The notes: a model not told the origin generated them from the letters alone. Counted from the first letter of the stretch, positions 6,758 to 45,561 are shown. The stretch: DNA of 50,332 nt from a virus (IMGVR_UViG_3300042328_001042:1-50332); one strand, 5' to 3'. Made by a program: numbers and translations.

Positions 6758-7336
6758 ATGTTTGCGTTCGATATAGAAACCTTAGGTGCGGAATCAACGT
6801 CTGTTATCCTGTCATACGCGATCGTTTATTTTGATCCGGATACAAAACCAACCTATCAACAACTGTTAGACAAAACTTTATTTGTCAAATTGGATGCTAA
6901 AGATCAAATCAAAAACTATAAACGAACTATATGTAAAGACACCTTAGAATGGTGGTCTAAACAGCACGAATACATTCAAGGTATAAGTCTGACGCCAAAA
7001 CCAGATGACGTTTCTGCCGTTGGCGCATTCAGAATGTTATCTGAATACATCCGTAGAGTTCCGAACGCTGAGAATCAAACCTTCTGGCAACGTGGATCGT
7101 TGGATCAAGTAGTTCTGGACAGTTTATGTCGAGCGCTTTACGAAGAACCAATTGTAAGGTATAGTAATTGGAGAGATGTAAGAACTGCTATTGATATTTT
7201 GTATGGATCAACCAACGGTTATGTTGAAATTGATCATCCTGAATTTAACAAAGATTTAGTATTAAAACATCATCCATCTCATGACATCTGTTTAGATGTC
7301 ATGCAACTACTTTATGGTAAGGAGAAACATGTCTAA
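6758..7336 (+). CDS. dexA: DexA-like 3'-5' exonuclease
   Basis: 192 residues. DEDD-superfamily motifs are visible: FDIETLG at residues 4-10 (ExoI), RGSLDQVVL near 112-120 (ExoII) and HDICLDV near 180 (ExoIII). T4 DexA degrades single-stranded DNA from the 3' end and is dispensable; this copy sits directly upstream of the polymerase, with an 8-base overlap. Start ATG at 6758 has GAGGTG upstream; the GTG at 6752 lies within that site. Confidence 0.85.
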   Translation: MFAFDIETLGAESTSVILSYAIVYFDPDTKPTYQQLLDKTLFVKLDAKDQIKNYKRTICKDTLEWWSKQHEYIQGISLTPKPDDVSAVGAFRMLSEYIRRVPNAENQTFWQRGSLDQVVLDSLCRALYEEPIVRYSNWRDVRTAIDILYGSTNGYVEIDHPEFNKDLVLKHHPSHDICLDVMQLLYGKEKHV

Positions 7337-8810
7337 TTTTTATACGAATGTCATGGTTAATGGCGATAATATATTCGCACGCGGTGTGGAAAACGGGAAG
7401 AAATTTATTCGCAAGGAAGAGTTTTTCCCGACGATGTATCTAAAATCAAAAAAACAAACCGTTTGGAAAACTTTATACGACGAACCTGTAGAAGAATTGA
7501 AAGCAGGTTCTATTCGCGAAACCAGAGACTTTTTGAAACGGTATGAAGAGGTCGAAGGATTTTCTGTATATGGCAATAACAACTATGTACAACAATACAT
7601 TTCCGATAATTACAAAAACGACGTTGTTTATGACATCGATAAGATCCGCGCGGTTTCGATAGATATTGAAACGACTGTGGAGTCGGGGTTCCCTAACATA
7701 AGAACCGCCAATGAAGAAATTCTGCTGATTACTCTAATTGATTGTAGAACTTATAAGAGCGTTTGTTTTGGAAGTCGCCCTTGTAATTACGAAGATACCG
7801 ATTCATCCAAATACATTTTATGCAGTAACGAAGAATCATTACTGAAAAACTTTCTGATGTATTGGCAAGCAAACTATCCTGATATTATTACGGGGTGGAA
7901 TACGGAACAGTTCGATAATGTATATCTTATTAATAGAATTAAACGGGTTCTAGGCGATTCTTATGCCAAAAAACTTTCCCCTTGGAATATGTTATTTGAA
8001 CGGAAAGTTAAAATTCGGGGTAAAGAAGAACAAATTTATGACATCTGTGGTATTGCTTCGTTAGATTACCTAGAACTGTATAAGAAGTTTACATATAATA
8101 AACAGGAATCATATTCATTAGATTTTATCTGCGAATATGAACTTGGCGAAAAGAAATTAGAAAATCCAGGTGATACTTTTAAAGAGTTTTATACAGACCA
8201 TTGGAATACGTTCGTTGAGTATAATATTCGCGACGCGGCGTTGGTTGTTAAGTTAAATGACAAAATGCGATTACTTGAATTAGTTATGACTATCGCTTAT
8301 CAAGCAAAAATCAATTACGAAGACGTATACAGTCCAGTAAAAACTTGGGAAGCAATCATCTACAATTATTTACGCCAACGTAATATAGCAATTCCTCAGT
8401 CAAAATTCGGCGGTAAATCAGAGCAGTTCGAAGGCGCTTATGTCAAACCGCCGTTGATTGGGTTCCATAAATCGATTGCGTCATTTGATTTAAACTCTCT
8501 GTATCCGCATCTTATTATGCAGTATAATATGAGTCCAGAAACAATTACCGATATACGAATTCCTTGTTCCGTCGACGAGTTATTAGAACGTAAGGTTGAC
8601 ACGTCGGTAATCGAACCCTATAACGTAGCATTGACTGCAAACGGTTGGTGTTATACTAAGGAGAAGAAAGGGTTCCTCCCTCAGTTGATGGAAAACATGT
8701 ATGTAGACCGTTCTAAAGCAAAGAAACAAATGCTTAAATTAGAACAGGAATATGAACACATTAAACAAGAGATTAAAATCCGTTCTTTAAAATCAAATCC
8801 AAACGTCTGA
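7329..8810 (+). CDS. 43A: DNA polymerase, N-terminal part of a split gp43 (gp43A)
   Basis: 493 residues: N-terminal domain, 3'-5' exonuclease and first half of the polymerase domain of a family B replicative polymerase. Exonuclease motifs: DIETTVE near 116, TGWNTEQFDN near 188 and YNIRDAALV near 298. Palm motif A is FDLNSLYPHLIMQYN near 387. The frame stops in the fingers linker, with a non-homologous tail (IRSLKSNPNV). The remainder of the enzyme is encoded from 9005. The start has AAGGAGAAAC upstream and overlaps dexA. The two products presumably assemble into one polymerase, as known for split gp43 of some Aeromonas T4-like phages. Confidence 0.93.
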   Translation: MSNFYTNVMVNGDNIFARGVENGKKFIRKEEFFPTMYLKSKKQTVWKTLYDEPVEELKAGSIRETRDFLKRYEEVEGFSVYGNNNYVQQYISDNYKNDVVYDIDKIRAVSIDIETTVESGFPNIRTANEEILLITLIDCRTYKSVCFGSRPCNYEDTDSSKYILCSNEESLLKNFLMYWQANYPDIITGWNTEQFDNVYLINRIKRVLGDSYAKKLSPWNMLFERKVKIRGKEEQIYDICGIASLDYLELYKKFTYNKQESYSLDFICEYELGEKKLENPGDTFKEFYTDHWNTFVEYNIRDAALVVKLNDKMRLLELVMTIAYQAKINYEDVYSPVKTWEAIIYNYLRQRNIAIPQSKFGGKSEQFEGAYVKPPLIGFHKSIASFDLNSLYPHLIMQYNMSPETITDIRIPCSVDELLERKVDTSVIEPYNVALTANGWCYTKEKKGFLPQLMENMYVDRSKAKKQMLKLEQEYEHIKQEIKIRSLKSNPNV

Positions 8811-8900: not shown

Positions 8901-8990
8901 GAAAGTTTTTAATGCATTGATTGTTGCTTTTAATCTATTTTTGCGCTTTACTTTTATACCGTTTCGAGGTATACTTTTATTTATATCATT
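8793..8990 (-). pseudogene. minus-strand open frame inside the polymerase split, possible endonuclease remnant
   Basis: On the minus strand, 65 codons are open between stops at 8991-8993 and 8793-8795, without an ATG. The reading (…IKVKRKNRLKATINAL…) is basic and protein-like. It fills most of the DNA separating gp43A from gp43B. Split gp43 genes elsewhere carry a homing endonuclease gene at the split, so a decayed 3' end of such a gene is plausible; no catalytic motif can be seen. Confidence 0.3.
8947..8975 (+). promoter_or_regulatory. early promoter inside the DNA polymerase split
   Basis: TTTACT 8947-8952, 17-base spacer, TATACT 8970-8975, followed by GAGGAG before the ATG at 9005. It gives the second polymerase gene its own transcription and translation signals. 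Confidence 0.85.
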
Positions 8991-9004: not shown

Positions 9005-10355
9005 ATGAAAGATATAAAAAACATGACCGATTCCGAATTATTGGAATATGAAATTTACGTAGAGAAAGAAATAAGCAGATTAAATAATTTGCAAATGGCG
9101 TTGAAAATCCTTTAACAATAAGAGGCATATGTCGGTAACGGCATACAGAAAATCTGGTGAAAACGGTGAAAATCCAGAACGGACAATACCGTGCCAAGTC
9201 TATTTTTATAGAAAGGTGTAACGACTATTCCGAAAGGAAGTAGAACCAAGCGGTTCGAAGCGCCAGACGACCTAAACAGGTTGATGAGATAGTCTGCTCT
9301 GCATAGGAATATGCAGCTGCTTTACGCGGGGTTGGATTAGCGAACCGATCCGAACACAAAGGTTAAATTCAGCATATGGCGCATTGGGCAATAACTACTT
9401 TAAGTATTTTGATTTGAGACTTGCAGAAGGGATTACAATGTCTGGTCAGTTATCCATTCGTTGGATGGCAAATAAATTAAATGCTATGATGAATAAAACA
9501 TTAAAGACAGTAGATAAAGATTACGTGATTGCTATCGACACGGATTCTATTTATTTGTCGTTAGAAAAATTAGTTGATTCGGTATGTAACGGTAAATCTG
9601 CGGAACAGAAAATTCAATACATGGATAAAATTTGCGAGGAAGTATTCCAACCCTTTATTAATAAAGGTTACCAAGAACTTGCTGATTACATGTATGCATA
9701 TTCTCAAAAAATGGTAATGAAACGAGAATCATTAGCGGATAAAGGTATTTTTATTGCCAAAAAGCGTTACATCTTGAATGTTCATAACTCCGAAGGCGTT
9801 CAGTATAAAGAACCTAAATTGAAAGTCATGGGACTCGAAATGGTTCGTTCTTCCACTCCTGCAGTTTGTCGAAGTAAACTGAAAGGTGCAATTCCTGTCA
9901 TCCTTGACGGCGATTCTGTTGGATTGAAGCAATACGTTTCTGAATTCAAAGATCAATTTATGAAACTTCCAGTTCATGACATCGCTAAACCTTCCGGCGT
10001 GAATGGTATGACCACTTATAAAGGCGCGGATAACATTTATGCAAAAGGAACGCCGATTCACACTAGAGGCGCGTTGCTATTCAATCATCATACTAAACGG
10101 TTGGGGTTGGATAAAAAGTATGAGATGATACAAGACGAGGATAAAATCAAATTTGTGTATGTTCGTAAACCAAACCCGTTTCAAGAAGACATTATTTCTT
10201 TCCCGACTCATTTACCTAAAGAGTTTGGACTTGACTCTTATATTGACAGGGATCTACAGTTCCAGAAAGTGTTCGTAGACGCATTACAAATTATGGTAAA
10301 CCCGCTGGGGTGGAGTTTAGACGATTCAGCAAATTTAGAAGACTTTTTTGGATAA
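9005..10355 (+). CDS. 43B: DNA polymerase, C-terminal part of split gp43 (gp43B), interrupted by a group I intron
   Basis: Read as exons 9005-9112 and 9363-10355, giving 366 residues. Exon 1 ends in ..NLQMALKIL and exon 2 begins LNSAYGALGNNYF, restoring family B motif B across the splice. Motif C is IDTDSIY, followed by the thumb. Without splicing, a TAA stop occurs immediately in the intron. The N-terminal MKDIKNMTDSELLEYE continues the linker broken off in gp43A after ..KQEIK. It is preceded by its own promoter and a GAGGAG site. Confidence 0.9.
9113..9362 (+). other. group I intron, 250 bases, without ORF
   Basis: The 5' exon ends in U (CCTT) and the intron ends in G. The 5' exon CCTT pairs with intron GAGG at 9122-9125 to form P1 with the required U-G pair at the splice site. 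The conserved R and S elements are visible as ACGACTAT (near 9222) and ATAGTC (near 9290), forming P7. ACGG/CCGT near 9179-9192 fits P5. It sits in the polymerase motif B codons, a favoured site for phage introns. No endonuclease is encoded within it. Confidence 0.9.
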
Positions 10356-13628: not shown

Positions 13629-13631
13629 ACT

Positions 13632-13660
13632 TTACTTTTTGGCATACATAGAGTATACTT
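13632..13660 (+). promoter_or_regulatory. early promoter of the modification island
   Basis: TTTACT 13632-13637, 17-base spacer, TATACT 13655-13660, then TTGGAGGAG before the ATG at 13684. Confidence 0.9.
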
Positions 13661-13683: not shown

Positions 13684-15087
13684 ATGAAAGTGATTGTACT
13701 TAAACCGGAAGAAGTTGTTCCGCGTCCAGATTTGGTTGGAACTTGGTTAGATGAAACGCATTACCATACGTTGGTCGAAGAAGACATGGATTTGTATTTG
13801 CCGCCGGAATGTTCTGTGGGTTTAGAAGCAGGAACTGATGATTGCGGTAAAAAGTGTAATAATTGCGAGTCCGGACTGAGCGAAAAGAATATCGTATTCA
13901 AATTCCGTAAAAACTTCTTTACAGAAGAAGAAACTCTGTCCGCGTATGAAGGGTTGAAAGATGCTGCCATTCCAACTGAAAACAGAGGAACTGCGGCAGG
14001 TCCAAGAGAAGAAACATTGGGTAACAGAGAATGGGTTACATCATACCAAAATGAGATTTTAAATTGGTTTAAAAACGCTAAATCAAATGTGTTTGGAGAC
14101 GACCCCATTCAAGAAATTATTGAAAAATATAAAACGATTGATAAAGACCAAGCGTCCAACAGAAATAACGTGTGGTCTATAATTTCAACTAAAGAAGAAA
14201 ATTTTGTTTTTGATGAATGGGTCGAAAAGGTTCGTAAACTATCTCCGGACTCGCAGGCAAAAGAAGCGAACCGCGTTGAAGATAAATTGATTTGCAAAAC
14301 AACTTATGCAAATTCAGTTCTTTCCGGTATCGCTGGGTGGTATGACCGTTACCCAAGAATTCCGTTCGGTCGCGCGACCACTTATACAAGAGATAACCCA
14401 GAAAAGTTTGCTAAATCGTACCCGTATTTGCAAAGATTATCTGGGGCATTTAAAGAAATGTTGCCTTGGCGTTATCATAATCAAATGGAAGCGGCATCTA
14501 AAATTGATCCCAGATTTTTAGTTCCGGAAACTCCATTTAGCACTATTACGGTTAATCGTAATTTCAGAACCGCTGGTCATTACGACCCAGCGAATATGGA
14601 AAATGGATTTGCCAATATATGCGTATTCTCTAATAATGCAAATTATGATGGCGCATATTTGGTATTTCCCGAAATCGGTTACGCTGTTAATATCCGTCCC
14701 GGCGATTTGTTGTTTGTTAATAATCAAGCAGGTCTACACGGCAACACAGAATTGATTCTGAATGACGAATCTGCAGAACGAATATCTGCAATCGCTTTCT
14801 TTCATGAAGGTATGTTAGAACTTGGTTCTTATGATTATGAAGAAACAAGAAGAACGTTCGTGGAATCAAGAATGAAAAATAAAGAACACCCGTTGCAAAG
14901 AGACAGATGGAATGGCGTTAGTCCTGGAATGTGGGCAGATAATCCAGATAAAAAGCATGATTATTCCGCTGCTAAAGAATGGTATGATTATCTAAAATCT
15001 AAACCGCAAGGCGATGAATGGTTAATCAAACATCATCCTTGGTTGAAAGAAGCGTTTGAGAATAACGGATTAGAAGATTTCTTTTGA
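13684..15087 (+). CDS. TET/JBP-family 2-oxoglutarate/Fe(II) dioxygenase (predicted DNA base hydroxylase)
   Basis: 467 residues. The double-stranded beta-helix core spans about residues 285-390: STITVNRNFRTAGHYDPAN supplies the H-x-D iron ligands (H299, D301), VFPEIGYAVNIRPGDLLFVNN is the family's central block, LHGNTEL gives the distal histidine (about H352), and ERISAIAFFHEGM gives the 2-oxoglutarate arginine (about R366). TET/JBP enzymes oxidise the methyl group of 5-methylcytosine or thymine inside DNA. The N-terminal 270 residues are family-specific, with a cysteine cluster (DDCGKKCNNCESG) near 58-70 that could bind zinc. It heads an island with a 5hmU-DNA-kinase-like gene, so thymine is the favoured substrate (inference). 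Confidence 0.88.
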   Translation: MKVIVLKPEEVVPRPDLVGTWLDETHYHTLVEEDMDLYLPPECSVGLEAGTDDCGKKCNNCESGLSEKNIVFKFRKNFFTEEETLSAYEGLKDAAIPTENRGTAAGPREETLGNREWVTSYQNEILNWFKNAKSNVFGDDPIQEIIEKYKTIDKDQASNRNNVWSIISTKEENFVFDEWVEKVRKLSPDSQAKEANRVEDKLICKTTYANSVLSGIAGWYDRYPRIPFGRATTYTRDNPEKFAKSYPYLQRLSGAFKEMLPWRYHNQMEAASKIDPRFLVPETPFSTITVNRNFRTAGHYDPANMENGFANICVFSNNANYDGAYLVFPEIGYAVNIRPGDLLFVNNQAGLHGNTELILNDESAERISAIAFFHEGMLELGSYDYEETRRTFVESRMKNKEHPLQRDRWNGVSPGMWADNPDKKHDYSAAKEWYDYLKSKPQGDEWLIKHHPWLKEAFENNGLEDFF

Positions 15088-15092
15088 TAACA

Positions 15093-15125
15093 AATGGCGG
15101 TTGAAATATACCGCCATTATTTTTA
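15093..15125 (+). terminator. hairpin terminator or attenuator after the dioxygenase gene
   Basis: An 8-bp perfect stem (AATGGCGG 15093-15100 with CCGCCATT 15111-15118) followed by ATTTTTA. It lies between the dioxygenase gene and the next gene, so it may set a lower level for the rest of the island. Confidence 0.75.
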
Positions 15126-15135
15126 CGGGTTAGTT

Positions 15136-16170
15136 ATGGCGAACATTCCAAATGATTTAGGCGGTGATTGGCGGATAGACAAATTTGTCGACTACCAACA
15201 TTTCGTTCCGCCGATTTATCAATCAACTCTTACTCAATATGCAATTGATAATCAATTAAACGACAGAGATTGTACAGTTCTTTCTTGGTATATGTCTGTA
15301 ACGTACAGCGAAATATCTGCTATATGGATGCATCAAGTTTTACCTATCTCCGAGTTACATAAAGCGGATGATTGGTTTGAAAAACATAAAGATATAATGA
15401 TATTTGGGTCTTCCAAAAAGTACAATCGGTATAAAGGAAGATTCAATTATTTAATGAAACAGTTTCTTGACGTTTACGGAACCGAACCCGAAAAGAAACT
15501 CTATGAAGTTATAGGAACTGGAACTGAGAAAGAAATGTATGATAGAGCGTTAAAACAAAATCTAGCGATAAAAGAATGCGGTAGATTTAGCGCCGAGTTA
15601 TTCAACGAATGTTGTTTGTTTTTATCTGAAGCAGGTTTCATGAACGCCAAGATGTCATCGCCCAATTCAGTTGATTGGGATAAAGGCGCTAATCTTACCA
15701 GTTGTATGTTTAATTTATTGCGCAGAGACGATTTAGCGGATGAATACGATAAATTGGGTAAACTTACGGATGAAATGAAAACTTATATACCGTTGTTTAA
15801 TTCAGAACTGATTAGAATTAGAGATAAAATCTGGACGAAATATCCAGAACGTCAAGTTGATATACCGTTATTTACGCCTAAACTTTGTTCGTTTAGAAAT
15901 TTATTTAAATGCACTCGATATGCTCCGTTTCATGCAGATAGACAGTTAGAACATATTAGAAAATACGAAGAATGGTATCCTGAGTTAAGTCATATATGGG
16001 ATGGACTGTTTGATATACGTTCTAAAACTATGCCGGAACATTTTTTAGGCGAAAAGAATAATTGGAACGGGATAAGAAAAGAACGTAAATATCTTTGGGT
16101 GAATAGAGGGTTGACTGGCGTTGAACCAGAATCAAATTATCCAGAATCGACGCTGGAGGAATTTTGTTAG
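15136..16170 (+). CDS. helical DNA-hypermodification protein, resembling the aGPT-pyrophosphorylase / DNA amino-acid-transferase group
   Basis: 344 residues. The open frame starts at 15094, but that region is the terminator stem, so the ATG at 15136 is used. Mostly helical; blocks worth noting are SWYMSVTYSEISAIWMHQ near 52-70, CGRFSAELFNE near 154, and FKCTRYAPFHADRQLEHIRKYE near 258-280. The CGRFSAELFNE and DRQLE patterns correspond to YFAFKLADMIE and QEIETLLCDYRKVCKG in the next gene, so the two appear to be distant relatives. In hypermodified-thymine phages, helical proteins of this kind act on phosphorylated hydroxymethyluracil. The assignment is by context and remembered family features. 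Confidence 0.6.
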   Translation: MANIPNDLGGDWRIDKFVDYQHFVPPIYQSTLTQYAIDNQLNDRDCTVLSWYMSVTYSEISAIWMHQVLPISELHKADDWFEKHKDIMIFGSSKKYNRYKGRFNYLMKQFLDVYGTEPEKKLYEVIGTGTEKEMYDRALKQNLAIKECGRFSAELFNECCLFLSEAGFMNAKMSSPNSVDWDKGANLTSCMFNLLRRDDLADEYDKLGKLTDEMKTYIPLFNSELIRIRDKIWTKYPERQVDIPLFTPKLCSFRNLFKCTRYAPFHADRQLEHIRKYEEWYPELSHIWDGLFDIRSKTMPEHFLGEKNNWNGIRKERKYLWVNRGLTGVEPESNYPESTLEEFC

Positions 16171-17114
16171 CAACCGTTTATTATGATGAAGAACCCGTTG
16201 AATATGAAATGCTTGACGGGTTTCGCGCGTTTTCGTATAAACACATAGCATTGGGCGATGTAGATCCTATCTACGCAATGATTCGTAATTCCGCGTTAAA
16301 CTATAACGAGAAGAAACGGTTTATATTTTCTCATCTTATGGTTTACGATTTGAAGACCAGTATAGCGTTATCGGACATAAAAGATGATCAATTATATTAT
16401 GATAAGTTATTGTATTACTTCCAAGAAGCAAAAGTCGGCAAAGATAGAAAAGACGTTGCTTCCAGAGAAACCAATATAAAGTCTAGAATGTTTGGAACTC
16501 AACTTCCAAAGATGAGATTACGGTCACCGGAAGATTGGGTCGAAGATACTATACAAGCAACCCAATCTTCTAAAAGTTGGGGCGTAAGTTTAAAAACCGG
16601 TAAAAATATACCTACGTTTGGTGAATACTTCGCGTTTAAACTCGCCGACATGATCGAAACTATATTTGATGTAGATGAATACACCGTTACCTATAATAAA
16701 GAGTTCATAGACTCTATACCAAGAGGTTCGTTGACTGGGTATGAAATGACCAGAACAGGTTCGACTCATAAGTTTAGATCAAAAGAAGAAATAAGACGTT
16801 GTTCTTTAATGTCTAAGTTTTATAACATTCATTTAGAATTCTTTTCTTCGATTAACTGCCCGCACAAACCAAGCAGAGCGATAGGCGTTCAAGAAATAGA
16901 AACTTTGCTTTGCGATTACAGAAAAGTTTGTAAAGGGACTTTACTTTATGGCGATAAAGTCCTAAAATTAAAGGATGGTATAGAAGTTAACAAAAAGTTA
17001 GAAACTGCGCAAAGACTGTTGGTTGGCGCTCAACCGTTATTGACCAGAAGAACCGAGTTATTGGAACTTGGTATTATGAACATTAATGAAACGCATTGTA
17101 ATCATTGGAGATAG
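16164..17114 (+). CDS. second helical DNA-hypermodification protein, TTG start
   Basis: 316 residues. TTG at 16164 lies 3 bases after GGAGGA and overlaps the previous stop; no ATG fits as well. Helical, with conserved-looking blocks RSPEDWVEDTIQ, FGEYFAFKLADMIE, PRGSLTGYEMT and QEIETLLCDYRKVCKG. It shares layout with the preceding gene and is followed at once by the kinase gene. A role as transferase or pyrophosphorylase on a phosphorylated hydroxymethyl base is inferred from the island; no catalytic residue can be named with confidence. Confidence 0.6.
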   Translation: MLATVYYDEEPVEYEMLDGFRAFSYKHIALGDVDPIYAMIRNSALNYNEKKRFIFSHLMVYDLKTSIALSDIKDDQLYYDKLLYYFQEAKVGKDRKDVASRETNIKSRMFGTQLPKMRLRSPEDWVEDTIQATQSSKSWGVSLKTGKNIPTFGEYFAFKLADMIETIFDVDEYTVTYNKEFIDSIPRGSLTGYEMTRTGSTHKFRSKEEIRRCSLMSKFYNIHLEFFSSINCPHKPSRAIGVQEIETLLCDYRKVCKGTLLYGDKVLKLKDGIEVNKKLETAQRLLVGAQPLLTRRTELLELGIMNINETHCNHWR

Positions 17115-17115
17115 T

Positions 17116-17658
17116 ATGAAAAAAATTATAGCAGTCGGTGGCCGTCCAGGAACGGGTAAAACAACTTTGTTTAGAGAGTTCATTAAACAATACGAATGGG
17201 ATAAAGTTGAACCTAAAAAGTTAGTTCCAGCGTTGTACAACAAAGAATTGGATTTGTACATTCTTGGTAAATACGAAGAAGGCGATACTTTTGCCGGCAC
17301 AGACAAAATGTCGATGGCGTGCCAACCAAATGTACAAGAGTTTATCATTGAAACGACTTCTAACGTGTTATACGAAGGCGACCGTATATTTAACAAGTCA
17401 TTTCTTGAATTTGCATCGGAACAACCGAATGTCGATCTCAGCATAATCTATTTAAAAGTTTCAGACGATACGTTACAAGAACGGTATGAAGAACGCGGGA
17501 GTAACCAATCAGAAACTTTTTTGAAAGGCAGAGAAACTAAGTATAATAACATTTTATCTAATTTTGATTTAATGTCATACATTACAGAGTTTGAAAATTC
17601 GAACACAGAACAACAAACTATTATATTAAACTTTTTAAAATCAAAATTCGGCGTATGA
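17116..17658 (+). CDS. P-loop kinase resembling 5-hydroxymethyluracil-DNA kinase
   Basis: 180 residues from the ATG at 17116 (TTGGAGATAGT upstream). Walker A is GGRPGTGKTT at residues 8-17. TFAGTDKMSMACQP near 58-71, VLYEGDRIFNKSF near 88-100 and the C-terminal ETFLKGRETKYNNI near 134-147 agree with what I recall of phage 5-hmdU DNA kinases (ViI gp67, M6 gp54), which transfer phosphate to hydroxymethyluracil in DNA. The dioxygenase at 13684 could create that substrate. A general nucleotide kinase is the alternative, but the EGDRxFN block argues against it. Confidence 0.78.
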   Translation: MKKIIAVGGRPGTGKTTLFREFIKQYEWDKVEPKKLVPALYNKELDLYILGKYEEGDTFAGTDKMSMACQPNVQEFIIETTSNVLYEGDRIFNKSFLEFASEQPNVDLSIIYLKVSDDTLQERYEERGSNQSETFLKGRETKYNNILSNFDLMSYITEFENSNTEQQTIILNFLKSKFGV

Positions 17659-17659
17659 T

Positions 17660-19165
17660 ATGATTTGTAAACATTGCGGTAACGGTAATACCAATAAAAA
17701 CGGGAAATTTGTTCTCAACGATGGAACCATTAAATATCGTTATAAATGTAACGACTGTAACAAAACTTTCTCTACTACAGATAATTCTGATAAATTCGCA
17801 CCGGAAGTGGCGTTGACGAACAAACGATATGTAATTTCATCTGTGCAGAATAACACGGAAACCAATTATGATTTTTTGGCTTCGTTGGAGTTATATTGCG
17901 AACGTAATAAAGCGGAACTAATTATCATACCCACCGTCCACCAAGAAGTTTTATATCCGTTTCCGCTGATGTCTTGGGATTGCGACGAGAAATACCTAAG
18001 GCGCGAAAAGTTCAGTATGAATGGTATGGTGAACTGTATAGCTAATATAAAAATAAATGTTGCAGCCGAAAATCCGCTGGGCGGTTTAGATTCTTTATCA
18101 AAGGGTAAAACTCTAATAGTTCCTCATAACCAATTACAAATGAGATCATTACCGGTCGCGGTTGATGAGCATCCAGCGATTCTTTGCACAACTGGAACTA
18201 TCTCCGAACGAAATTACATAAAAAGTAAATCCGGCGAGAAGGCTGAGTTTAACCATTCGAACTCGGCTGTGTTTTTAGATTTCAATGATGATAGTTATCA
18301 TCTTAGAATATTGAACGGCGATGAGAATGGCGGGTTTTATGATATAGACGGTTATTATTTGGTCAATAAATTTACAAAATTGTCTGAAGTTGAAGCGTTG
18401 ATAACCGGAGATGAGCATGTAATCGTTAACTGTTCGGAAGTTTCCAACGCGACCTATCATGACGCTAAAAGTATAGTAAACACCCTTAGACCGAAGAAAA
18501 TTATTCGTCACGATGTGTTAGATTGTTTTACTATATCTCACCATCATAGAAAAGATAATTTTATACAATATTCTAAATTTATCAACAATATGAACAGTAT
18601 TGAAGAAGAACTAGCGGATACAATTAAATACATTGAAGAAACAACGCCGGAATGGTCTGAAACTTACATAGTTTCATCTAATCATCACGATCACCTCAAG
18701 CGTTGGTTGACGGAAGTTGATCCGAAAGTCGAACCTTGGAACGCAAAACTTTTTCATAAATTGACGTATATGATGTTAGATGAAATCGATAAAGCCAAAG
18801 AACAAGGTAAGTTTTTGGTTCCGGATCCGTTTAAACTGTACGTAGAAGACGGTGGAACTAAAATCAAATTTGTCGGGAGAAATCAATCGTTCAAAATTTT
18901 TGATATTGAGTTGTCGAACCACGGAGATAAAGGCGCAAACGGTTCTAGAGGTTCTTTATCGCAGTTCTCTAAATTTTCCGAAAAAGTTGTAATCGGACAT
19001 TCTCACACGCCTGGAATCAACAAAGGCGCGTATTCCGTCGGAACGAGCACTTCAAAGAATTTAGAATACGTTAGCGGACCATCGTCTTGGATGAATACGC
19101 ATTGCGTCATCTACCCTAATGGTAAACGACAATTGATCAATATAATTAAAGGAAGATGGAAATAA
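17660..19165 (+). CDS. zinc-ribbon metallophosphoesterase resembling phage T5 protein A1
   Basis: 501 residues. Residues 1-40 form a zinc ribbon (CKHCGN ... YKCNDCNKTFS) of the kind seen at the N-terminus of some transposases. The remainder carries calcineurin-like phosphoesterase motifs: TGDEHVIVNCSE near 250, SSNHHDHLKRW near 343, ELSNHGDKGANGSRGS near 414-430 and GHSHTPG near 450. The end (GPSSWMNTHCVIYPNGKRQ) matches my memory of T5 A1, required for second-step transfer and host DNA degradation. It lies two bases after the kinase gene, so it may use host DNA lacking the modification as target (inference). Confidence 0.72.
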   Translation: MICKHCGNGNTNKNGKFVLNDGTIKYRYKCNDCNKTFSTTDNSDKFAPEVALTNKRYVISSVQNNTETNYDFLASLELYCERNKAELIIIPTVHQEVLYPFPLMSWDCDEKYLRREKFSMNGMVNCIANIKINVAAENPLGGLDSLSKGKTLIVPHNQLQMRSLPVAVDEHPAILCTTGTISERNYIKSKSGEKAEFNHSNSAVFLDFNDDSYHLRILNGDENGGFYDIDGYYLVNKFTKLSEVEALITGDEHVIVNCSEVSNATYHDAKSIVNTLRPKKIIRHDVLDCFTISHHHRKDNFIQYSKFINNMNSIEEELADTIKYIEETTPEWSETYIVSSNHHDHLKRWLTEVDPKVEPWNAKLFHKLTYMMLDEIDKAKEQGKFLVPDPFKLYVEDGGTKIKFVGRNQSFKIFDIELSNHGDKGANGSRGSLSQFSKFSEKVVIGHSHTPGINKGAYSVGTSTSKNLEYVSGPSSWMNTHCVIYPNGKRQLINIIKGRWK

Positions 19166-19168
19166 TTC

Positions 19169-19196
19169 TTTACTTTTAAGAACATCGTAGTATACT
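19169..19196 (+). promoter_or_regulatory. early promoter
   Basis: TTTACT 19169-19174, 16-base spacer, TATACT 19191-19196. Confidence 0.85.
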
Positions 19197-28864: not shown

Positions 28865-29890
28865 ATGTTGTGGATTGATGTCAAATACGCGAACGTAATC
28901 GGTTCGCGTCTAAGAAATTTCAAAAAAAAGTCAGAGTACTTGTGGAACTGTTCGTGTCCCGTGTGCGGCGATTCCAGTAAAAACAAAAACAAAGCGAGAC
29001 TCTACATCTACAGACAAACCCACGGTTTGTTTGTCAAGTGTCACAAATGTCAATACAGTTCTACATTAGGTAATCTAATAAAACGCGTTGATGCCAACGT
29101 CTATTCAGATTACGTCCTAGAACGATATAAAACCGGCAACGAAAAGTATATTCCCCATACAGATATAACAGAAGTGATCCCGTCGCTTAAACCAGAATTA
29201 TTGGAAGATGAAGTTTTATCTAAATTAAAACGTATTGATAAACTACCAAGAACTCATTATGCGGTTCGGTATATTGAATCCAGAAAAATACCAGAAGAAT
29301 TATGGAATCTATTTTATTATACGCCTAAATTTTATAAGTACGTAAATCAAAATATAAAATATCAATTTACTGATTCTTTACTGGCAATAGACCATCCTAG
29401 ATTAGTAATACCGTTTTTTAATAATGCCGGTAAATGTTTTGCGTTACAAGGACGAGCATTTGGTAAAGAAATACCGAGATACATTACTATTAAAGTGGAT
29501 GAAACTGAAGATAAGATATTTGGTTTAGAGCGGTTAGATTATTCTAAACAGGTTTTAATTACAGAAGGACCAATTGATTCTTTATTTTTACCCAATGCTA
29601 TTGCCGTATCGGGTTCTAATTTTGATATGTATACATTAAGAACAATAATGACCAATGCCATCATCGTTCCTGATAATGAAAGAAGGCATAAAGATGTTGT
29701 TAGGATTTTACAAAAAAATATTGAGTTAGGTTATAAAGTTGTTCTGTGGCCAGATACTTATGAAGAAAAAGATATAAATGAAATGATTTTAAATGGTAAA
29801 ACTAAAGAAGAGATTTTAGACGTTATAAGTAAGAATACATTCAGCGGGATTGAAGCAAAATTGAGATTATCAACTTGGAAAAAAATATGA
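28865..29890 (+). CDS. 61: DNA primase, T4 gp61 type
   Basis: 341 residues. The N-terminal zinc ribbon is CPVCGDSSKNKNKARLYIY...CHKC near residues 38-60. TOPRIM residues appear as VLITEGPIDSLFLPN near 225-240 and VPDNERRHKD near 263-272. It makes RNA primers for lagging-strand synthesis together with the gp41 helicase. First gene of the operon; ATGA overlap with thyX. Confidence 0.9.
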   Translation: MLWIDVKYANVIGSRLRNFKKKSEYLWNCSCPVCGDSSKNKNKARLYIYRQTHGLFVKCHKCQYSSTLGNLIKRVDANVYSDYVLERYKTGNEKYIPHTDITEVIPSLKPELLEDEVLSKLKRIDKLPRTHYAVRYIESRKIPEELWNLFYYTPKFYKYVNQNIKYQFTDSLLAIDHPRLVIPFFNNAGKCFALQGRAFGKEIPRYITIKVDETEDKIFGLERLDYSKQVLITEGPIDSLFLPNAIAVSGSNFDMYTLRTIMTNAIIVPDNERRHKDVVRILQKNIELGYKVVLWPDTYEEKDINEMILNGKTKEEILDVISKNTFSGIEAKLRLSTWKKI

Positions 29891-30570
29891 AAGCGAAATT
29901 GATTAGTTATACGCAACCAGCAGAAGATTTAATTGACGGCGGTATTGATTCGCCGGAAGAATTGATTGCCTTTTGTGCAAGGGTGTCGAACCCAGCAAAT
30001 CAGTATAATACTGAAACATCTACGAAGTTAGTCAAGTATTTAATTAAGCATAAACATTGGTCGCCGTTAGATATGGTTGATATTACCATTGAAATTGAAC
30101 CAACCAGAGACATTGGGCGACAAATGCTTAGACACCAATCGTTTAAATGGCAAGAATTTAGTCAGCGTTATTCATCTATTGAAGACCTTAACGATATGTT
30201 TGAAATCTCAGAATGTCGATTACAAGATGATAAGAATCGCCAGAACTCTATTGTATTAGATGTTTCTAATCCAGAACATCGCGAGTTATCCAGACTCTGG
30301 TTAGAAAAACAGCAAGAAGTTATTAGATTGACTAGAGAAACATATCTCTGGGCATTGAACAACGGCGTCGCCAAAGAAGTAGCAAGAAAAGTGTTACCAG
30401 AAGGACTAACTAAAACCAGAATGTACATGAAAGGTTCTGTTCGTTCTTGGATTCATTATTTAGAAGTTAGACTAGATGAATCGACCCAGAAAGAACACCG
30501 CGATATTGCTTTAATCTTATCTGAGATTATTGCAACTATTTTTCCAATTGAAGATTATACAAAGGCATAA
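29887..30570 (+). CDS. thyX: flavin-dependent thymidylate synthase ThyX
   Basis: 227 residues from the ATG overlapping the primase stop. The ThyX signature R-H-x7-S is visible in RHQSFKWQEFSQRYS near residue 80, with HKHWSPLDMVD before it and SVRSWIHYLEVR near 182. It makes dTMP from dUMP using FAD, NADPH and methylene-tetrahydrofolate. Its presence next to RNR indicates ordinary dTTP synthesis rather than replacement by hydroxymethyl-dUMP at the nucleotide level. Confidence 0.93.
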   Translation: MKAKLISYTQPAEDLIDGGIDSPEELIAFCARVSNPANQYNTETSTKLVKYLIKHKHWSPLDMVDITIEIEPTRDIGRQMLRHQSFKWQEFSQRYSSIEDLNDMFEISECRLQDDKNRQNSIVLDVSNPEHRELSRLWLEKQQEVIRLTRETYLWALNNGVAKEVARKVLPEGLTKTRMYMKGSVRSWIHYLEVRLDESTQKEHRDIALILSEIIATIFPIEDYTKA

Positions 30571-44543: not shown

Positions 44544-44933
44544 ATGTCTACAAGATCAACAATTGCGGTGCAACATTTAGATGGTACAGTTTCTTCAATC
44601 TATTGTCGTTATGATGGTAGTTTATCTGGCGTTGGGGTGACGTTAGCGAGATGGTATAATCAGATGGATAAAGCAGAATATTTGATTACTGCTGGTAGCG
44701 TTCAAGAAGTGCATGATTCCGTCGAATATACGTTTCAAGACGATAACCGTTATCTCGAAGATGCAATTACCTATTCAACTTTAGATGAATATTTTGATTC
44801 TGATGATTTCCAAGAATGTAATTATTTATGGACAGAACATGATGATGAAAATGGAAATCGTGTTGATGGTTGGTTGTATATAGGATATGAATATGCCGAC
44901 TGGACTCCAGTTAGTGGTTTATTAGATGCTTGA
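44544..44933 (+). CDS. conserved phage protein of unknown function
   Basis: 129 residues from the ATG at 44544. MSTRSTIAVQHLDGTVSSIYCRYDG is a start I recall from a widespread phage protein family without function. Acidic C-terminal half. Overlaps the flagellin-like gene by 8 bases, so the two are co-expressed early. Confidence 0.75.
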   Translation: MSTRSTIAVQHLDGTVSSIYCRYDGSLSGVGVTLARWYNQMDKAEYLITAGSVQEVHDSVEYTFQDDNRYLEDAITYSTLDEYFDSDDFQECNYLWTEHDDENGNRVDGWLYIGYEYADWTPVSGLLDA

Positions 44934-45561
44934 TATTAGTGGTTATCTTAGATTAAATCTGTCAAGGGTTCAATCTAACGTCAATGATTCAATGTATAAG
45001 TTATCAACGGGACAGAAAATCAATAGTTCGAAGGACAACCCAGCATTGTATGCAATATCAAAGTCTATTTCTAGGGGTATCAGTATGGATAACGTAGCGA
45101 TCAATAACTTAAATACTGCTAACCAATTTCTGAGCAACAGAGAATCTATTCTTGGTCAGATTATCGATAATCTACAATATGATAATCCTGATACAAAATC
45201 TGTTGATGATTTATTATCCAGTATGAATAAAGACGTATCAATCAGCATGGATAATGATGGCGAGTTTCTTATACCGAAAGTATCAGTCGATTTGACAAAA
45301 CCTGTATCAGAAATTGTTTCGGATCTTCAATCTGAATTGATAAAGGTTGGTTCTTTACGGCAAGCGACTGACGATAAAATAAGTTCTGTTACGGAACGAA
45401 TGAATATGAATCAGACAAGATACCATCAAATGGTAGATGTTGATGTAGAAGAAGAGATGTCAAAATTGACTAAAAATCTTGTGTTACAAAAGGTCGGTTA
45501 TAATATGATAAATCTATATAATCAAAGTTTATCCAATGTGTTAATGTTATTGAGAGGTTAA
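44926..45561 (+). CDS. flagellin homologue
   Basis: 211 residues. The N-terminal part (LNLSRVQSNVNDSMYKLSTGQKINSSKDNPALYAISKSI... NNLNTANQFL) follows the flagellin D0/D1 pattern, including LS(T/S)GxxINSxKDxPAxxAIS. The C-terminal 60 residues (RMNMNQTRYHQMVDVDVEEEMSKLTKNLVLQKVGYNMI) match the flagellin C-terminal D1/D0 helices. The variable middle domain is reduced to about 50 residues. It would be a minimal flagellin able to enter the flagellar export and assembly path. Confidence 0.88.
   Translation: MLDISGYLRLNLSRVQSNVNDSMYKLSTGQKINSSKDNPALYAISKSISRGISMDNVAINNLNTANQFLSNRESILGQIIDNLQYDNPDTKSVDDLLSSMNKDVSISMDNDGEFLIPKVSVDLTKPVSEIVSDLQSELIKVGSLRQATDDKISSVTERMNMNQTRYHQMVDVDVEEEMSKLTKNLVLQKVGYNMINLYNQSLSNVLMLLRG

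Follow-up and report, generated by a model that had tools for sequence, protein, structure and literature searches.

Systems that start from hydroxymethylpyrimidines made by TET/JBP dioxygenases were reportedly predicted by Iyer et al. in 2013. Here we describe a candidate of this kind, a four-gene island (13684-17658) in IMGVR_UViG_3300042328_001042, a linear virus record of IMG/VR; its 50,332 bases, a fragment of a genome, are called the window below. The island encodes a TET/JBP dioxygenase, two predicted amino acid:DNA transferases (ADDTs; Orf2 and Orf3) and a P-loop kinase. Its products probably hypermodify thymine in the replicated DNA of a T4-like phage, TET acting first and the kinase and ADDTs following.

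Several described systems share parts of this set. In the Pseudomonas phages M6 and PaMx11, 5-hydroxymethyldeoxyuridine (5hmdU) is converted to 5-phosphomethyl-deoxyuridine (5-phosphomethyl-dU) and then receives a glycyl group, the 5hmdU arising at the nucleotide level upstream of M6 gp51 (PMC6449724). The M6 kinase and gp51 fall in the same families as the window kinase and Orf3 (phrog_800 and phrog_6364), and the PaMx11 glycinyltransferase structure is a sequence match to Orf3. However, M6 makes its hydroxymethyl group with a thymidylate-synthase-family enzyme, where the window would use TET, and M6 has pyridoxal-phosphate and radical S-adenosylmethionine tailoring genes, neither of which lies beside the window island. 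Lysinibacillus phage LysYB1 has the nearest annotated relative of Orf2, followed by a kinase, but with a hydroxymethylase-like protein, a PF18748 kinase, and no TET found in the region. Caulobacter phage Cr30 and its T4-like relatives have a TET 43% identical to that of the window, with an ADDT and a kinase within 9 kb, but a TAGT-like gene and an inositol-1-phosphate synthase lie in between and the ADDT is from a different branch. Kinetoplastid JBP1 and JBP2, of the same dioxygenase superfamily, hydroxylate thymine in DNA (PMC10276184); base J is glucosylated, whereas the window has a kinase and ADDTs after the dioxygenase.

The concept of TET-first thymine hypermodification is not new, being already annotated in Gordonia and Rhodococcus phages (PMC11955845), where the ParB/TET/aGPT-Pplase2/5-hmU-kinase cassette of Gordonia phage Wooper and Rhodococcus phage Tonitrus was named a thymidine hypermodification system. 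The five genes of this cassette encode ParB, a Tet-like J-binding protein, aGPT-Pplase2, a 5-hydroxymethyluracil (5hmU) DNA kinase and a hypothetical protein. Like the window, Wooper has TET, ADDT (the aGPT-Pplase2) and kinase in a row, with gp3 in the phrog_6364 of Orf3 and gp4 in the phrog_800 of the kinase. Wooper is, however, a 61-kb phage of another family with ParB and one ADDT, while the window cassette has two ADDTs and no ParB; the two TETs are 18% identical, that of Wooper lacking the long N- and C-terminal parts. What is new here is a large T4-like family of such islands, the modularity of that family, and the two-ADDT version of the window. In the literature searched we found no experimental proof of a TET-first thymine route, and the idea that phage TETs initiate large DNA modifications by hydroxylating thymine appears to be, so far, a prediction.

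Enzymes of the island

An earlier note on this DNA had described a dioxygenase starting at 13684 with intact HxD, distal His and Arg, two related helical proteins, and a kinase with EGDRIFN and FLKGRETK blocks; each of these descriptions holds, both kinase blocks being present in the sequence. The mechanically called dioxygenase open reading frame (ORF) begins at TTG 13669 (472 aa), and the likely start is the ATG preceded by GGAGGAG (Table 1). Residue numbers here follow the 472-aa count, from which 5 is subtracted for the ATG start. The dioxygenase scores 86.1 bits with Tet_JBP (PF12851), above the curated cut-off of 34.9. It has the complete catalytic set, the Fe(II)-binding HxD...H (H304, D306, H357) and the 2-oxoglutarate-binding arginine (R371), and all four residues are invariant in the 15 rows of alignment A3 and the 34 rows of A5. 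A profile built from 34 dioxygenase sequences matches human TET2 at 9e-11. Foldseek, given the AlphaFold2 model (predicted local distance difference test, pLDDT, 84), finds TET2 (E 3.5e-11, probability 1.00), CcTet and NgTet1; structure predictions used alignments A4 and A5, made of window and contig proteins. The predicted activity is most likely oxidation of a 5-methylpyrimidine in DNA.

Both helical proteins probably belong to the amino acid:DNA transferases, the family of the 5-phosphomethyl-dU aminoacyltransferases, and are thus related as had been claimed, though only ~16% identical (alignment A2). Orf3, which starts at a TTG behind GGAGGA, scores 21.5 bits (2e-4) with the ADDT model PF18724, under the curated cut-off of 26.2, and by single-sequence phmmer matches the PDB chains 25qc_A (6.4e-7) and 8z2m_A (6e-5), each across most of its length. 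For Orf2, relatives from its family phrog_3271 do exceed the PF18724 cut-off (78.1 bits in contig L044, 57.2 bits in contig L061 and 180.7 bits in Cr30). The AlphaFold2 model of Orf2 (pLDDT 74) is all helix, and its only confident Foldseek matches are 8z2m/8z2n, the 5-phosphomethyl-dU glycinyltransferase PUGT (probability 1.00, TM 0.48-0.59). The kinship of both proteins rests on profiles and fold, because exact-peptide scans with them gave almost no relatives besides L014, a separate contig with a near-copy of the island. This kinship supports the pathway, since the 5-phosphomethyl-dU on which the glycinyltransferase acts is just what a 5hmU-DNA kinase makes. Orf2 is 40% identical to the LysYB1 protein and 43% to that of contig L070, against ~20% for most island ADDTs, and so differs from the ordinary ADDT of related islands.

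The kinase very probably starts not at ATG 17086 but at an ATG behind GGAG, 1 nt past the Orf3 stop. Its best PHROG is phrog_800, home of the M6 and ViI 5hmdU-DNA kinases, and the thymidylate kinase family phrog_761 scores lower (5e-8); the kinase is therefore not closer to ordinary nucleotide kinases, an outcome that the earlier note had named as damaging to its proposal. Walker A, GxD, EG and R are conserved with the M6 and ViI kinases, and the protein should have the function of a 5hmdU-DNA kinase though it stands outside the PF18748 family.

Table 1. Genes of the island and the motif upstream of them, in window coordinates
Feature	Position	Strand	Remarks
TET/JBP dioxygenase, 467 aa	13684..15087	+	PF12851 2e-24; phrog_24024 1e-140; ATG start, ribosome-binding site GGAGGAG
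Orf2, ADDT paralogue 1, 358 aa	15094..16170	+	phrog_3271 1.4e-8; nearest LysYB1 M3_0048 and L070
Orf3, ADDT paralogue 2, 316 aa, M6 gp51/PUGT-like	16164..17114	+	phrog_6364 1.4e-23
P-loop base kinase, predicted 5hmU-DNA kinase, TET-linked clade, 180 aa	17116..17658	+	phrog_800 7.7e-15; PF18751 4.9e-8
Phage promoter motif TTTACTT-N15-GTATACT (putative promoter)	13631..13659	+	one of 14 copies

Linkage and the proposed pathway

We scanned viral contigs with a kinase alignment, blind to TET, which gave 80 loci; a few more came from searching with the window kinase itself. Upstream sequence of 5.2 kb or more is available at 34 kinase loci, and each of these encodes TET and an ADDT, while none encodes a hydroxymethylase. 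At the level of whole records, Tet_JBP is present in 34 of 39 kinase-bearing contigs. Neither PF00303, the family searched for dUMP hydroxymethylase, nor PF00145, that for cytosine C5-methyltransferase, was found in any of these 39, nor in the 14 records made up of the window and 13 TET-anchored ones. The whole-contig search thus covered 53 viral contigs, the window and 52 related ones, many of them short fragments; four are of 160-168 kb, also carry a T4-type portal gene and, judging by size, would be near-complete (they are classed linear). Both families were likewise not found in the deposited genomes of DLP_6, C48C1, S-CBWM1, HTVC112P, P12024L and, as in the window, Wooper, and Melnitz alone among the phage genomes tested has a C5-methyltransferase. 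The PF00303 gene of Cr30 is an ordinary ThyA; we rejected it as a hydroxymethylase (373 bits to PF00303, only ~23-26% identical to the M6 and ViI hydroxymethylases). The hydroxymethylase-like protein of LysYB1 shares 34% identity with the M6 and ViI enzymes.

These results bear out the earlier note, which saw neither a dUMP hydroxymethylase nor a cytosine C5-methyltransferase in the window, proposed a wider search for them, and had TET taking the place of the nucleotide-level step, with the kinase and helical proteins adding a larger group. The ThyX that it reported is also present (29875-30570; PF02511, 7.7e-40).

The same ADDT lineage occurs with a hydroxymethylase-like protein in LysYB1 and with TET in L070 and the window, so TET and hydroxymethylase interchange upstream. 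Because the two alternate upstream of the same enzymes, we argue that the TET product here is 5hmU. Gp51 of M6, the relative of Orf3, is said by Lee et al. to act downstream of nucleotide-level 5hmdU.

In the following scheme the modified base, the sequence of reactions, the identity of the amino acids and the protective role are inferred. Acting on DNA like the JBPs of the base J pathway, the dioxygenase would hydroxylate thymine at its 5-methyl group to give 5hmU; with thymine hydroxylated in DNA, a dUMP hydroxymethylase would be unneeded and ordinary dTTP, supplied through ThyX, could be used. The kinase would then phosphorylate the hydroxymethyl group, giving 5-phosphomethyluracil. Orf3 (M6 gp51/PUGT-like) and Orf2 (LysYB1-like) would exchange the phosphate for amino acids, each enzyme perhaps adding its own or working at its own sites, and the resulting aminoacyl-methyl-uracil bases may mask the genome from host nucleases.

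Alternatives to a thymine pathway

The alternative that we take most seriously, though we consider it unlikely, is a cytosine route, in which 5-methylcytosine (5mC) is made by a C5-methyltransferase of the host or of another part of the phage genome, TET converts this to 5-hydroxymethylcytosine (5hmC), and the kinase and ADDTs build thereon. Melnitz has an HhaI-type C5-methyltransferase directly upstream of its Tet_JBP gene, together with a kinase of the same clade as that of the window, but known ADDTs use 5-phosphomethyl-dU, and a natural 5hmU DNA kinase (5-HMUDK) phosphorylates 5hmU in DNA, not 5hmC (PMC6457204). The best fold matches of the dioxygenase are the 5mC enzymes TET2 and NgTet1, yet no JBP oxygenase structure is among the matches. 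A cytosine route is opposed as well by the negative PF00145 searches, which besides the window and the 52 related contigs included DLP_6, Cr30, C48C1 and Wooper.

Several points nonetheless weigh against the thymine pathway. With a C5-methyltransferase, TET and a kinase of the same clade combined in Melnitz, thymine is the probable and not the proven base, though the Melnitz cassette has no ADDT-family match. The TET-linked kinase clade that it shares with the window may accept 5hmC, and the host could possibly supply 5mC, leaving T or 5mC as the base. The negative PF00303 and PF00145 results for the window are those of a genome fragment. Orf2 gave no match to PF18724 at E up to 1 and no direct Pfam match, and the E-value of its fold match to 8z2m/8z2n is only 0.01-0.016. 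For the kinase, the named 5hmdU-DNA-kinase model PF18748, matched by the M6, ViI and LysYB1 kinases, is not among the matches listed, where PF18751 appears instead. In the kinase tree the TET-linked clade stands apart from the hydroxymethylase-linked kinases with support of 100/100, on long branches that make finer detail unsafe.

It is very improbable that the kinase acts simply on nucleotides or polynucleotides, as common kinases do, and lies near TET incidentally: matches to Pfam AAA_18 and dNK and a weak PDB match to T4 Pnkp are set against the rank of phrog_800 above thymidylate kinase and the presence of TET and ADDT at all 34 loci. Even less credence goes to the possibility that the TET-family enzyme has N6-methyladenine, on which CcTet can act, or some other base as its target, with the remaining genes serving a separate modification. 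CcTet-6mA structures are among the dioxygenase fold matches, and three relatives have, between TET and ADDT, a gene of 220-229 aa from a single protein cluster, whose member in contig L024 matches N6_N4_Mtase; but this gene is limited to 3 of 76 islands, and the kinase and ADDT chemistry requires a hydroxymethyl pyrimidine. For decay or lack of expression of the island we found no evidence, and it is scarcely credible given intact frames, ribosome-binding sites and catalytic residues, a strong promoter motif, and an identical copy of the four genes in L014.

As read from its sequence, the island appears real and functional, and is a good experimental test case for the thymine pathway; because the linked enzymes are intact and alternative first steps were searched for and not found, the thymine-first question is directly testable. 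The island is also a source of new candidate enzymes, DNA aminoacyltransferases and kinases, that could serve for labelling.

Related islands and surroundings

We compared 76 islands for the genes lying between TET and kinase. The most frequent modules are GATase (59), an amidoligase-like protein (36) and GNAT acetyltransferases (22 and 23); a low-molecular-weight phosphatase is found in 14, and glycosyltransferases or a flavin halogenase in a few. Minimal TET and kinase pairs are found in L028-L030. Among the 76, the window and its near-copy L014 alone combine an Orf3-type gene with a separate Orf2-type gene, so the window has two diverged ADDTs where relatives have one plus other modules. 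A broader reading, which we regard as evenly balanced between right and wrong, is that a widespread T4-like lineage performs in-polymer TET-kinase-ADDT thymine hypermodification with exchangeable modules (GATase, amidoligase, GNAT or low-molecular-weight phosphatase, glycosyltransferase, one flavin halogenase), and that the window phage, with two ADDTs and none of these modules, would make a doubly or differently aminoacylated thymine that is undescribed.

Three of the variants deserve mention in their own right. Between ADDT and kinase, contig L027 (10139-11614) encodes a protein of the flavin-dependent tryptophan-halogenase family (PF04820, 7.9e-93; VirX1 viral halogenase, 3.5e-55), hinting at a halogenated DNA base. 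A branch of close TET relatives has no kinase in the available flank; in its representative L063 (9998-12198), on a 126-kb contig without a C5-methyltransferase, TET is directly followed by a TET-associated glycosyltransferase, possibly a base-J-like modification. In Methylophilales phage Melnitz-3 (L006, 4010-8090) a C5-methyltransferase, Tet_JBP, a 427-aa protein of no named family and the kinase follow one another, probably as a counterpart of the pathway for cytosine.

The four genes of the window island run head to tail with intergenic gaps of -7 to 6 nt. The earlier note had placed them under one promoter, and a shared unit is supported. The motif TTTACTT-N(14-15)-GTATACT occurs in 14 copies in the window, exclusively on the + strand (0.02 expected), at sites from 385 to 48246; the island copy stops 24 bases short of the dioxygenase ATG, and the following copy is at 19169. 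Because no copy intervenes, the next gene (17660-19165, 501 aa) is probably also part of the unit. It belongs to phrog_1745 ('DNA transfer protein') and, among the island neighborhoods compared, is common only to the window and L014. The number of sigma-70 consensus sites in the region (34, against 26.5 expected, standard deviation 5.4) did not clearly exceed chance; the 14-copy motif is the informative signal.

In the public records of Cr30, DLP_6, S-CBWM1 and M6, TET genes carry the label 'SNF2 DNA repair protein' and the genes of base kinases that of 'terminase small subunit'. We reject both labels as misannotations; the island accounts for them, and they conceal such genes in public records.

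Elsewhere the window has T4-type replication genes (a UvsX-type recombinase, a DnaB-type helicase and a split family-B DNA polymerase), and encodes a primase and both ribonucleotide reductase subunits. The polymerase is in two ORFs (7296-8810 and 9384-10355) with a copy of the promoter motif between them at 8947. A 211-aa phage-encoded protein at 44926-45561 has both the N- and C-terminal domains of flagellin.

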